From Sunxiuqinia dokdonensis (GTDB lineage: Bacteria; Bacteroidota; Bacteroidia; Bacteroidales; Prolixibacteraceae): DNA of 42,532 nt. The stretch's first letter is position 1. Each line of letters opens with the position of its first letter. The notes beneath the pieces were generated by a model. It worked only from the letters and a program-made list of their open reading frames with translations. It made no database searches and was not told where the DNA came from. The position numbers were made by a program, and so were the translations under genes. The stretch covers positions 1 to 42,532 of the forward strand of contig NZ_LGIA01000145.1 of assembly GCF_001270965.1 (NCBI RefSeq), given 5' to 3'. This document shows, piece after piece, positions 6,976 to 39,599 of the stretch.

Positions 6976-7206
6976 TTCCGATACGTCTAAGTGTGACATC
7001 GACATCTCTCGATGCCTCATCGATACATCTAGTTGTGATATCGACATCTCTCGATGCCTCATCGATACATCTCGATGTGACATCGACACCTATCGATACC
7101 TCATCGATGCATCTGGATGTCATATCTACACCTCTCGACGACTCATCGATATGTCTAAGCATGGCATCGACACCTCTCGATGTCAAATCGAAATGGTTGA
7201 CACTGG
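6976..7206. repeat. Eleven-copy 21-bp palindromic tandem repeat
   Basis: Eleven contiguous units begin every 21 bp from 6976 to 7186 and fill the space between the LptD-like gene and the receptor gene, ending exactly at the receptor stop codon. Two unit types alternate, roughly CATCGACATCTCTCGATG plus CCT and CATCGATACATCTCGATG plus TGA, giving a 42-bp super-period. Most units contain CATCGA...TCGATG arms separated by six bases and could form a small hairpin. Because 21 is a multiple of three, reading frames stay open on both strands and encode degenerate seven-residue repeats. These were not taken as genes. The first and last units are the most diverged, which suggests in-place expansion followed by decay. 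Confidence 0.9.
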
Positions 7207-25094: not shown

Positions 25095-25162
25095 TGAGAG
25101 TGTGAGAGGGTGAGAATGTGAGAATATGAGAGAGTGGGAGTGTGGGAGTGTGAGAACACGAG
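25095..25162. repeat. GA-rich microsatellite upstream of cinA
   Basis: About 68 bp of degenerate GTGAGA/GTGGGA units on the plus strand, beginning five bases from the cinA start codon. The stretch TGAGAGGGTGAGA near 25102 is complementary to TCTCACCCTCTC motifs in the CT tracts at 25181-25229 and 25643-25735. Confidence 0.85.
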
Positions 25163-25180
25163 ATCATTGGCTTTTCAACA

Positions 25181-25229
25181 TCTCTCCATCTCTCCATCTC
25201 TCTCTCTCTCTCTCTCTCACCCTCTCTCA
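25181..25229. repeat. CT microsatellite abutting the four-helix-bundle gene stop
   Basis: TCTCTCCA units pass into an uninterrupted CT run, then TCTCACCCTCTCTCA, and end next to the stop codon of the four-helix-bundle gene. With the GA tract 19 bp away this could fold into a long imperfect GA/CT hairpin. Confidence 0.85.
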
Positions 25230-25230
25230 T

Positions 25231-25605
25231 TCAGATGCTCCATTTTTCAGGAGATCGTTGCATGTTCACCAACATTCCAATAATGTTTTCGTATTCCTCA
25301 TCGAATTCTTTATACTGATCCTGTGAGATATATTGACATGCTACTGCAAAATCGAGCCAATTTTGAGTCTCGGCCGCTTCCGCTTCGCTTTCATTTAATT
25401 TGTTGACAAATGATTTTGGGTATTTTCTTCGGCGAAAAGCTTCTGAAATATTGCTGGAAACTGAACGCGATGATCTTCGGATCTGATCTGTCAGCGAGTA
25501 AGTTTCATCTTTAGGGAAAGATCTTGATAAAACAAAAATCTTCATGGCTACTTCGAAGGATTTCTTATAAACCTTTAGTTCCCGATGCGTTTTGATTCGT
25601 TCCAT
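25231..25605 (-). CDS. Four-helix bundle protein (S23/IVS-encoded family)
   Basis: A 124-residue all-helical protein of the family first met as the protein encoded by 23S rRNA intervening sequences, and structurally related to the Avd accessory protein of diversity-generating retroelements. Family signatures are the LKVYKKSFE start, IRRSSRSVSSNISEAF in the second helix, and the Glu-rich third helix NESEAEAAETQNWLDFA. No reverse transcriptase or variable repeat is nearby, so a retroelement role is not supported here. The gene occupies its own island between cinA and the M48 gene and both sides are CT/GA microsatellite. That arrangement suggests insertion as a unit. Biochemical function is unknown for free-standing members. 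Confidence 0.92.
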   Translation of the reverse strand: MERIKTHRELKVYKKSFEVAMKIFVLSRSFPKDETYSLTDQIRRSSRSVSSNISEAFRRRKYPKSFVNKLNESEAEAAETQNWLDFAVACQYISQDQYKEFDEEYENIIGMLVNMQRSPEKWSI

Positions 25606-25642: not shown

Positions 25643-25728
<86 letters not shown>

Positions 25729-25735
<7 letters not shown>

Positions 25736-26955
25736 CTCATCGCCGCCAGGCGCTCCAGCAGCGGTGGGTGCGAATAGTGCACAAACACATAGGCCGGGTG
25801 GGGGCGCAGGTTGCTGAGGTTTTTCACCGAGAGTTTTTTCAGGGCCGAGGCCAGGGGCTGGCCATTGTAATGTTGCGCGGCAAAAGCGTCAGCTTCGTAC
25901 TCATTCTTACGCGAAAAAAGATTCATGCCGATGCCGATCACGGAGGACAGCGGCGAGTACAAGATGCCAAAGGCAATCAGCCCGATGTGGAAGCTGGGTT
26001 CGCTGACGCCCAGGGCTGCCGAAAGGGCCGGACTGTCAATCAGCAGGGAGAAAATGTACAACATCAGCCCGGTTTGGATGATGCCGATGAGCAAACTCCA
26101 CAAGACATGTTTTTTCTTGTAATGCCCGATTTCGTGTGCCAGCACCGCTACCAGTTCCGGTATTTCCATGTCCTTGATCAGCGTGTCGTAAAGGACAATG
26201 CGTTTTTTCGGGCCCAATCCCGAGAAATAGGCGTTGGCTTTGGTGGAGCGTTTGCTGCCGTCAATCACATAAATATTGTCGAGCTTGAAGCCCACCTTGG
26301 AGGCAAAGCTTTGGATGGCCTGCTTCAGCTCACCGTCTTCCAGCGGCGTTTGCTTGTTGAACAGCGGTACGATGAGCGAGGAGTAAAACATGGCCATGAA
26401 AATGGAAAAGCCGCTGACCACCAGCCACACGTACAGCCAGAACCATTCGCCCGTTTTCAGGTAAATGAAAATGATCAACGCCAGCAAACCGCCGCCAATC
26501 AGTGCACCCAGCAACCAGCCTTTCAGCTTGTCGAGCACATAGGTTTTGGGGGTGGTTTTGTTGAATCCGTATCTTTCTTCAATCACAAAAGTGCTGTACA
26601 AGTCGAATGGCGTGCTGAGCAGATCGGAGGCCAGCAGCAAAATTCCGAAGAAAACTAGAGCCGACCACACCGGGCTGGCCGACACGGAAAGCGCCCACTG
26701 GTTAACCAGGGCAAAGCCTTCGAAGAAAAGCATTAGCACAATCAGCACAAAGCTGAACGAGCTGGTGAGCATGCCAAAGCGGTGGTTGGTTTTCGAGTAA
26801 GCTTGCTGGCGGCGGTATTTATCTTCGTCGTAAATGCCTTTTACTTCGTCGGGTAGCTGGCTTGTCCAGCGTGTGGTGTTCAGGTAATCGAGTACCCGTT
26901 CAACCACAAAATCCAAGATCAGGATACCCAGAATAATCCAGAATAGGGTTGTCAT
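25729..26955 (-). CDS. M48 family (Ste24/CAAX-type) zinc endopeptidase
   Basis: Integral-membrane zinc metalloprotease. The 408-residue product has about six to seven membrane segments, the catalytic box HEIGH (274-278) and the NEYEADAF motif (351-358) that supplies the third zinc ligand. The FNKTTPKTYVLDKLKG segment (about 131-146), the ANAYFSG motif (about 241-247) and the C-terminal YSHPPLLERL box match the Ste24-like group. In bacteria the role is probably membrane-protein quality control, since these cells lack CAAX-prenylated proteins. The ATG at 26955 directly precedes the first membrane helix; the 38 in-frame codons before it derive from an AT-rich repeat. Its 3' end runs into the CT microsatellite. 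Confidence 0.94.
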
Positions 26956-37692: not shown

Positions 37693-38509
37693 AATTCCGA
37701 ATATTTTATCAAATAATCAATCTGGCATGGCCTGTTGAATCTGCTCTTCTTCCTATGGTCTAACCACAGCCGATGCAGGCTAGTGTATCATGCTCGCCGA
37801 AATCCACCAGGCAGACCTGCCCGTTTGAAACAGAAATTCCTGATTCAACCAAAGGATTCGATAATCGACAAACTCCTGCTGCCCGGCTTGTGCGCCCGTG
37901 TTGGCATTTGCTCGTCGGGCTTTGTACGCTGGAAAAACAAATCCCGGTCCAGCCTGGCTCGTTGCTGTTTACGACCATCTGCGTTATTATTTAAACTCAT
38001 TCCAAATACAATAGGGCTACCCACTTTTTTAAGCTATTTCATAGGTCAGTACCATTAAAATGATAGTTTTGTTTAACCATTGCAATTCTGAACAATCGAT
38101 TCCCGGCCGGGGAAAGAGACCATTCAATAGGAGGACTTGATAGAATGCCTGTTTTGGCAGACCAAGCGGAACGAATTGATACCCTTGGGCAGGCATTGCC
38201 AAGTGAGCAGCGCAGATCGAAAGAACAAAGGATGGGGCGGGGAGGTGGCATCGAGCGGTGCAGACGGATTGATGGCAACCGTGTGCAATTGCTCAACATA
38301 TTGTAGCTGCTGTGGTCAAACCAAAAAATTAAATCAAACATCTGGATGCAACGGAACAGTTGGCAAAAAACAAGGAAGCCAGAACGGGCGGATGACCGGG
38401 AACACGGTGAAGGCCCCAGAAGAACAGCGCAAACCACGGGGCAGCGCTGCAAGCCGTCGCCCGAATCGGTGCATACCTGCCGGAAATGGAAGAAGTACGG
38501 TCTTGTTGC
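37693..38509. other. Gene-poor stretch without a recognisable gene
   Basis: About 800 bp, visibly richer in G and C after 38100 than the flanking genes. Open frames exist on both strands but share no recognisable motif and their Cys/Arg/Ser-rich products lack coding character. The run between 38130 and 38500 may be a decayed mobile or coding segment. No terminal repeats or transposase motifs were seen. Confidence 0.5.
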
Positions 38510-38833
38510 AATTCCAGGCGGTCGTGTCACAATTCCAGACGGAATTTTCCAATTCCAGGCGGTATTGTCGCAATTCTGGATGGTAGCTCGTAATTCTGAG
38601 CGGTCGTGTCGCAAAACCAGGCGGAATTTTCCAATTCTGGCCGGTATTGTCGCTTTTCCAGGCGGTAGCTTGCAAATCCAGCCGGTATGGAGTAATTCCA
38701 GCCGGTATGGAGCAGTTCTGGATGGTATGGGGCAGTTCCAGGCGGTAGCTTGCAGTTCCAGATGGTATGGAGCAGTTCCGGATGGTATAGAGCAGTTCCG
38801 GGTGGTAGCTTCCAATTCCAGCCGGTATGGGCA
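38510..38833. repeat. Sixteen-unit modular 20/21-bp tandem array
   Basis: Units start at 38510, 38531, 38551, 38572, 38592, 38613, 38633, 38654, 38674 and then every 20 bp to 38814. Each has a 12-bp core near AATTCCAGGCGG followed by one of five tails: (1) TCGTGTCRC, (2) AATTTTCC, (3) TATTGTCGC, (4) TAGCTYGY, (5) TATGGAGC. The tail order is 1-2-3-4-1-2-3-4-5-5-5-4-5-5-4-5. Tails 1 and 3 are 9 bp and the others 8 bp, which explains why spacing alternates between 21 and 20 at first and then stays at 20. Units 1-4 and 5-8 form an 82-bp higher-order duplication. Several frames stay open through the array on both strands; none is taken as a gene. Confidence 0.92.
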
Positions 38834-38951
38834 AAATCAAAACCGGGGGGCCTTGCCGGATTTTGGGAACGCTGAAAAATGAGGCTTTGCTTAAGGAGTG
38901 GTGGGAGAAAATTCTTGTTTCTGATCACCCTCTAACTTAAATAAAAACATC

Positions 38952-39599
38952 ATGAACAAAGAGATTGATGAATTATTATTGAAAGCGAACACTGGCATCA
39001 ACAATGCGTTGAGCCACCCGGATGTGTCCGGACTGATGAGTCCGTTCGGCTATACGTCCGAGAAGTTGACCGCCGGCAAAGCCATTTTGACCCACGCTCA
39101 AAATCTGCAGGCGCTGCAGGTGAAAGAGGCAGGCGAACAGGATGGTGCCAGCAATGAGCTCCAACGAAAATGGTCGGAAGCTCATCATATTTACATGACC
39201 TACGTAACAATTGCCCGAATTACCTTTAAAAACGAACCGGGCATGTGGACCAAGCTGCAGATCGGCGGCAGGCGTAAACAAAGCTACTCTGGCAGGATTA
39301 GCCAGGCGCGGATGTTTTACGTTAACCTGATGGCCGACGAAGCAGCCATGACTAAAGTGAGCGAGTTTGGTGTGACCACGGAGAAACTACAGGCCGGATT
39401 GGCACTGGTAGAGGAAGTGGAAAATCAACTGGCCATTTATACGAAGGAAACCGGCGAATCGCAGGACGCTACCAAGGCCCGCGACGAAGCGGTGGACGTA
39501 TTGCATGAGTGGTACTCCGATTTTAAGGCCATTGCCCGCCTTGCGCTGCAAGAACGTCCGCAGTTGCTCGAAATTCTGGGAATCATAGAACCATCTTAA
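38952..39599 (+). CDS. All-helical protein with two-fold internal duplication, function unknown
   Basis: A 215-residue protein without signal peptide or membrane segment. Two homologous halves are visible: residues about 33-105 (FGYTSEKLTAGKAIL, KEAGEQDGASNELQRKW, YVTIARITFKNEP) and about 139-210 (FGVTTEKLQAGLALV, KETGESQDATKARDEA, FKAIARLALQERP). Each half would form a short bundle of helices. The connecting segment holds GGRRKQSYSGRI, a basic patch. I do not know a characterised homologue. The gene begins 118 bp downstream of the modular tandem array and is followed by its own terminator, so it is a single-gene unit. The ATG at 38952 follows an A-rich leader. Confidence 0.88.
   Translation: MNKEIDELLLKANTGINNALSHPDVSGLMSPFGYTSEKLTAGKAILTHAQNLQALQVKEAGEQDGASNELQRKWSEAHHIYMTYVTIARITFKNEPGMWTKLQIGGRRKQSYSGRISQARMFYVNLMADEAAMTKVSEFGVTTEKLQAGLALVEEVENQLAIYTKETGESQDATKARDEAVDVLHEWYSDFKAIARLALQERPQLLEILGIIEPS

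Follow-up and report, generated by a model that had tools for sequence, protein, structure and literature searches.

Tandem arrays of 20–21-bp units upstream of PQLLE family genes hint at a protein-and-repeat partnership in Bacteroidota

Tandem arrays of 20–21-bp units lie directly upstream of most of the PQLLE family genes tested here, and the sequence of their units turns over to background similarity while the period and the protein family both stay recognizable. Unit motifs are similar among close PQLLE relatives, and the motif type of the window (the whole 42,532-nucleotide stretch of Sunxiuqinia dokdonensis DNA analyzed) occurs in dispersed arrays only in genomes with the matching PQLLE clade (E ≤ 1e-3). 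We interpret the window array, tentatively and with a probability of about 0.4, as a DNA platform that belongs to the neighboring PQLLE gene and carries helically phased, putative sites for protein binding. Array-plus-gene layouts are in themselves already known; nonetheless, neither an account of PQLLE nor a description of its pairing with arrays was found in the open-licence PMC papers searched, hinting at an undescribed partnership of protein and repeat. The initial annotation did not include the association with the downstream gene family, which becomes visible only by comparison with other genomes.

The window array and its gene

The array occupies positions 38510..38833 of the forward strand and comprises 16 units, each with a 12-bp core and an 8- or 9-bp tail, giving a period of 20/21 bp. 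Cores start at 38510, 38531, 38551, 38572, 38592, 38613, 38633, and 38654, and thereafter in 20-bp steps to 38814, corresponding to a spacing of 21, 20, 21, 20, 21, 20, and 21 bp with all the rest at 20. These positions bear out the initial annotation as to the 16 units with a constant core and the 21/20-bp spacing being set wholly by tail length (9 or 8 bp), and its tail order, 1-2-3-4-1-2-3-4-5-5-5-4-5-5-4-5, was correct if small differences within a class are allowed; such differences are present, the least typical tail being the last one (TATGGGCA). The 20-bp period of this array (L001) reached z = 15.8 against dinucleotide shuffles, none of 200 shuffles equaling it (p = 0.005, the floor of the test). 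Tandem Repeats Finder (TRF) returned periods of 82, 60, 41, 40, 21, and 20 bp, recovering the 82-bp duplication of the first eight units that had been annotated (38518-38670, 81% matches) as well as higher-order copies of 60 and 40 bp. The motif is antisense to the PQLLE gene and reads ACCGNCTGGAATTGC in its own sense.

The element begins earlier than the annotated position 38510, at about 38472. Its head (38472..38509, forward strand) consists of an inverted unit, CATACCTGCCGGAAATG, at 38472-38488 (z = 3.8), followed by a 20-bp junction (GAAGAAGTACGGTCTTGTTG) plus C and then by the first direct unit. Heads resembling it were recognized by eye at L003, L010, L060, and L061, as a variant at L002, and in shortened form at L062. 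Across the 58 PQLLE-linked arrays called in the survey below, an inverted unit outside the array was detected at z > 3 in 11, nine of which are among the 16 arrays of the window's protein clade (clade A). At the other end, a 118-bp leader (38834..38951, forward strand) separates the array from the start codon. A coding repeat was rejected, as dimers of 41 bp shift the reading frame and none of the ORFs continues across the array; structured RNA (0 Rfam matches at gathering score in the window, no folding excess) and tRNA (none in the window) were rejected as well. Elsewhere in the window, low-complexity TGAGAGTG, TC, and CTCTCTCC repeats (25095-25163, 25181-25228, and 25648-25738) lie around a 124-aa ORF (25231-25605).

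Among published minisatellites of the phylum, the closest that we found is BrickBuilt, which, with MITE464/PgRS of Porphyromonas gingivalis, is described in the sections of PMC4596501 considered here as a group of MITEs with IS5-type terminal repeats and units of 23 and 41 nt. Like BrickBuilt, the window array is an intergenic Bacteroidota minisatellite with leader ends and with conserved and variable unit halves arranged strand-wise; unlike it, the window array has a period of 20/21 bp rather than 23 nt, and it has a protein gene beside it, whereas those sections describe no protein partner for BrickBuilt (PMC4596501). A BrickBuilt-type element was rejected, the IS5-type terminal inverted repeat GAGACCTTTGCA occurring four times in the window at ≤2 mismatches (4.08 expected) and never at the array.

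The gene downstream (38952..39599, forward strand) encodes a PQLLE family protein of 215 aa (NCBIfam NF052641.1, E = 1.8e-74; 250 bits against a cut-off of 80 bits), and the same model was matched by all 29 aligned members. At E ≤ 1 the window protein had no Pfam family, and none of the 29 members had a convincing Pfam domain, with no transposase among the matches listed (25 of 43 families). Nor did searches of Pfam and NCBIfam connect the window protein with DNA-binding families of the Rep or ParR type, or PQLLE with a transposase or nuclease family. The AlphaFold2 model is all-helical (mean pLDDT 95.2), with a pattern of helix, short helix, 56-residue helix, and short helix that occurs twice, and a fold search against PDB and viral models gave nothing at E ≤ 0.001. 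The repeated helix pattern agrees with an apparent internal duplication of the sequence at an offset of 107 residues (residues ~29-45, SPFGYTSEKLTAGKAIL, and ~136-152, SEFGVTTEKLQAGLALV). Net charge at pH 7 is negative in 28 of the 29 aligned members. By contig context PQLLE is chromosomal, and a plasmid or phage origin was rejected as the one clade-C member queried matched nothing in plasmid and phage records. In the nearest relative (G001), a PQLLE gene 77% identical to that of the window is accompanied by a diverged array in the same place, at a locus that is partly syntenic.

Arrays next to and away from PQLLE genes

The survey covered 76 PQLLE ORFs retained at E ≤ 1e-4, unique by sequence and including fragments (L029 and L173 contribute two each, giving 74 loci). 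An array was called when the 450 bp upstream showed a period of 19–22 bp at z ≥ 3.5 against shuffles, provided that, of all periods from 10 to 35, the best was 20 or 21. Such arrays were found upstream of 58 of the 76 ORFs, downstream of none (0/75), and at 550–1000 bp upstream of one (1/73). Background rates were low, with 18 arrays in 1,740 random windows of two PQLLE-bearing genomes (G000, G035) and 7 upstream of the 459 non-PQLLE genes sampled from random stretches of four such genomes, a difference from PQLLE genes of Fisher p = 2e-53 if relatedness is ignored. TRF, an independent method, gave the same picture for the first 37 PQLLE ORFs and for distant homologues. Linked arrays were found in seven families (f1, f3, f16, f25, f57, f72, and f79); the f16 example is an almost exact match to one in G028 and may therefore reflect transfer or contamination.

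A called array was absent from 18 of the 76 ORFs, including several whole sub-clades of genus g7, and from all three out-of-sample homologues of two further families (f30 and f104), one of which had a downstream period-21 signal (z 4.3) with a best period there of 14; adding these loci gives arrays in 58 of 79. Borderline values in the period test were obtained for L145 (z 2.9) and L165 (z 2.6), and L113 carries a 42-bp-period array by TRF that was not called. Three further loci (L119, L123, and L124), outside the 76 as they failed the E ≤ 1e-4 cut, have 21-bp arrays by TRF at 420–700 bp upstream. The median number of units in a linked array is 9.4 and the median distance from its end to the gene is 86 bp, many arrays ending within ~60 bp of the start codon and several at 3–30 bp. 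In being intergenic, direct, and often placed before start codons the linked arrays resemble the TAACTGA repeats, which are reported also from some Bacteroidetes; unlike the PQLLE arrays, those repeats have a 7-bp unit and, in the parts of PMC4679880 drawn on here, no linked gene family.

Arrays also occur away from PQLLE genes, and we refer to these as orphans. A model of the window's repeat type (R2), trained on G000, G001, and G035, was searched at E ≤ 1e-3, and genomes were scored as cognate if they carry a PQLLE gene of the same clade in a tree of 70 of the 76 ORFs (those of ≥180 aa). Orphans were detected in 7 of 16 cognate genomes (four loci in G000, two in G001, one in G006, three in G035, two in G419, three in G424, and one in G451) versus none of 45 others (Fisher p = 2.6e-5), and in 4 of 13 versus none of 45 (p ~0.0017) once the three training genomes were left out. 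Two genomes with only broken PQLLE pieces (G430 and G432) were counted as non-cognate. Nine of the 16 cognate genomes had no orphan and six had no R2 match at all, while six of the 45 non-cognate genomes yielded weak single matches (E of 0.005 in G037, 0.03 in G003, 0.04 in G007, 0.004 in G433, 0.005 in G431, and 0.009 in G440) that are most likely due to chance. With a second model (R3, clade C), matches were mostly adjacent to PQLLE genes, and of three orphans at E ≤ 1e-3 one fell in clade C (G000) and two outside it (G002 and G448), so replication with this second motif is weak.

All 14 orphans examined (nine window-type and five of other sequence) lie outside ORFs of ≥140 aa, and as none has a PQLLE remnant within 2 kb they were rejected as relics of lost PQLLE genes. 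At least two are between convergent genes, and many are not in leaders. The window itself holds one, a second array of 21/42-bp period at 6979..7191, where an lptD-like gene and a TonB-receptor gene converge. No PQLLE remnant was found within 2 kb of it, and its units (CGATACATCTAGATGTGACAT / CGACACCTCTCGATGCCTCAT) are unlike those of all four PQLLE-linked arrays found in this genome. A window-type orphan at L003 (G000:C224) is located upstream of an iron/manganese superoxide dismutase gene. In G032:C1, a clade-C array (1305183-1305322) adjoins a truncated PQLLE gene (1305415-1305681), showing that an array can outlive its gene. When the period was not forced, periods of 20–21 or 41–42 accounted for 12 of the 22 non-coding arrays found in 800 kb from four PQLLE-bearing genomes, compared with 0 of 7 in 400 kb of three PQLLE-less genomes, a small sample from different lineages; the 200-kb sample from one genome, G035, contained no non-coding array. 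Repeats of other kinds were noticed as well. A different 41-bp array with a GCTGAGGCTCAGC palindrome (copies 95% identical at lag 41) is located at ~5838 of L183 and also near L061 (G001), and similar palindromes lie beside an orphan array in G001. Period-14 arrays of heptamer-like ATCAAGA/ATCCAGC units are found at ~86 and ~1028 of L184 in the window's own genome, and arrays of period 14 are present also in a sampled PQLLE-less genome.

The distribution of orphans recalls REPIN-RAYT systems, in which REP doublets are paired with their tyrosine transposases, as set out in the parts of PMC3116915 consulted. Both have a repeat beside a protein gene, cognate copies dispersed in intergenic DNA, and several protein/repeat groups per genome (PMC3116915). 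The inverted unit at the head of clade-A arrays may be comparable to an inverted doublet, the rest of the element being tandem; unlike REPINs, the PQLLE-linked repeats are 20–21-bp tandem arrays in few copies rather than singlets or doublets, and the protein has no transposase signature, Y1/HUH domains included. A selfish system of this sort, in which PQLLE aids the spread or persistence of its cognate array and orphans are non-autonomous copies, would account for the same-motif copies dispersed around a protein-linked array, intergenic in 14 of 14 cases with no PQLLE remnant nearby, for their co-occurrence with the cognate clade, and for the inverted unit, which formally resembles a REP doublet. 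We nonetheless consider it rather unlikely, as PQLLE matches no transposase or nuclease family, the model finds only one to four orphans per genome, and the window locus is orthologous to and partly syntenic with that of G001, so no movement is seen there.

A constant period with changing units

The best period is 20 or 21 in all 58 called arrays, as the definition of the call demands (range 10–35 bp), and unit sequence changes around it. Mean unit similarity between arrays is 0.71 where the proteins are more than 0.75 identical and 0.49 where they are less than 0.45 identical, as against 0.48 for shuffled units. Close PQLLE relatives have recognizable cores in common: one clade has TAAGGAA, a second has GAAGCAA or GGAAAA together with AATTGTAA, and the group that is sister to the window protein has ACCNNCGGAAATG. 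Turnover can be quick, L020 and L022 having proteins 0.90 identical and units only 0.52 similar. This speed, together with the higher-order duplications in the window array and the unlinked same-period arrays of these genomes, is what would be expected of neutral minisatellites under rapid concerted evolution that merely accumulate before the PQLLE gene. However, such an origin seems unlikely given the strong side bias (58/76 upstream versus 0/75 downstream), the recurrence in several families, and a period that is fixed despite the turnover of sequence.

An RNA-level role was also considered, in which the array in the leader of the PQLLE mRNA would be a string of RNA-binding sites for translational control. 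Arrays often end within ~60 bp of the start codon, as noted above, and the sense strand of many PQLLE-linked arrays contains a purine-rich core, GGAA or GCAA, two observations in keeping with that role. Yet the orientation of the ACCNNCGGAAATG-type motif differs between groups: it runs against the gene in the window and G001 and with the gene in the sister clade, a pattern better suited to recognition of DNA than of RNA. Moreover, folding gave no consistent signal across the arrays (mean z -0.60, 10 of 57 below -2), many orphans are not leaders at all, at least two lying between convergent genes, and it is hard to see what a strict two-turn period would mean for single-stranded RNA. We regard translational control as quite unlikely.

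Two turns of B-DNA span 20.5–21 bp, and from the retention of a 20–21-bp period we infer helical phasing, on which the reading of the window array as a protein-binding platform is built. Under it, PQLLE or a partner protein would occupy the same side of the helix at intervals of two turns and could bind cooperatively along the units, and occupancy at the PQLLE promoter would probably result in autoregulation. Orphan arrays might then act as extra docking sites, serving titration or chromosome organization. That PQLLE proteins are mostly acidic and have no recognized DNA-binding domain counts against direct binding by PQLLE itself. The platform reading as a whole is weakened by the ORFs and out-of-sample homologues that lack a called array, by the cognate genomes with no orphan or no R2 match, by the weak clade-C replication, and by the absence of non-coding arrays from the G035 sample.

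Plasmid iteron/Rep and centromere/ParR-type systems also place direct repeats of ~20 bp upstream of the gene for their binder, and are characterized by two-turn phasing, autoregulation, fast sequence divergence, residence on plasmids, and known DNA-binding folds. The two-turn direct repeats upstream of 58 of 76 PQLLE ORFs are similar in layout; unlike those systems, PQLLE is chromosomal by contig context, all-helical, and acidic, with no Rep or ParR-type match. By analogy, then, the PQLLE array may work most like iteron or plasmid-centromere arrays and be distributed somewhat like REPINs with their RAYTs, as far as the latter are covered in the portion of PMC3116915 used.

Tail classes and the meaning of the arrays

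The initial annotation centered on five discrete tail classes. Their order holds within the window, although when 15 window tails are pooled with 24 from two sister arrays of this genome (C149 and C224), the 39 tails fall into three clusters, not five, at ≤2 mismatches, each of the three being present at all three loci. Continuous tail variation, which had been named as evidence against discrete classes, is thus found in part, the classes grading into each other once the two sister arrays are added, and graded tails are possible in other PQLLE-linked arrays such as L095. Set beside CRISPR arrays, in which constant repeats are separated by unique spacers of similar length near cas genes, the window array has tails that recur. 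Identity at lag 2 exceeded that at lag 1 in 30 of 56 PQLLE-linked arrays, which does not support a general two-unit alternation. The tail classes largely reflect duplications of two, three, and four units (TRF periods of 40, 60, and 82 bp), and would for the most part have arisen incidentally, through unequal exchange of blocks of these sizes. Clusters common to three loci, and their fit with exchange of two- to four-unit blocks and copying between loci, indicate that the classes are probably a secondary feature.

Of the functions first proposed for the array, sites for protein binding remain the likeliest kind, without support for class-specific partners, and neither a substrate for site-specific rearrangement nor a template-like repeat found support. 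It is highly improbable that the tail classes are functional addresses for class-specific partners or a site-specific recombinase, for while identical tails do reappear at widely separated positions and at three genomic loci, the classes merge into three clusters with the sister arrays, other arrays have graded tails, and no recombinase adjoins the array among the neighbors tested.

The putative binding platform in the window may be one instance of a widespread chromosomal protein-satellite system of Bacteroidota, a broader and more doubtful proposal in which each PQLLE paralogue would have its own array, two-turn spacing would stay fixed while sequence races, cognate arrays would be dispersed, and several distinct protein/array pairs would coexist in a cell. 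If true, this would be a bacterial counterpart of fast-evolving centromere satellites and their binding proteins. For the uncharacterized PQLLE family, the array before its gene provides a testable physical partner. The arrays further constitute a natural experiment in which repeat spacing is constant while repeat sequence is replaced, so that the cause of unit-length conservation in bacterial minisatellites, whether helical phasing or neutral drift, becomes testable in closely related species.
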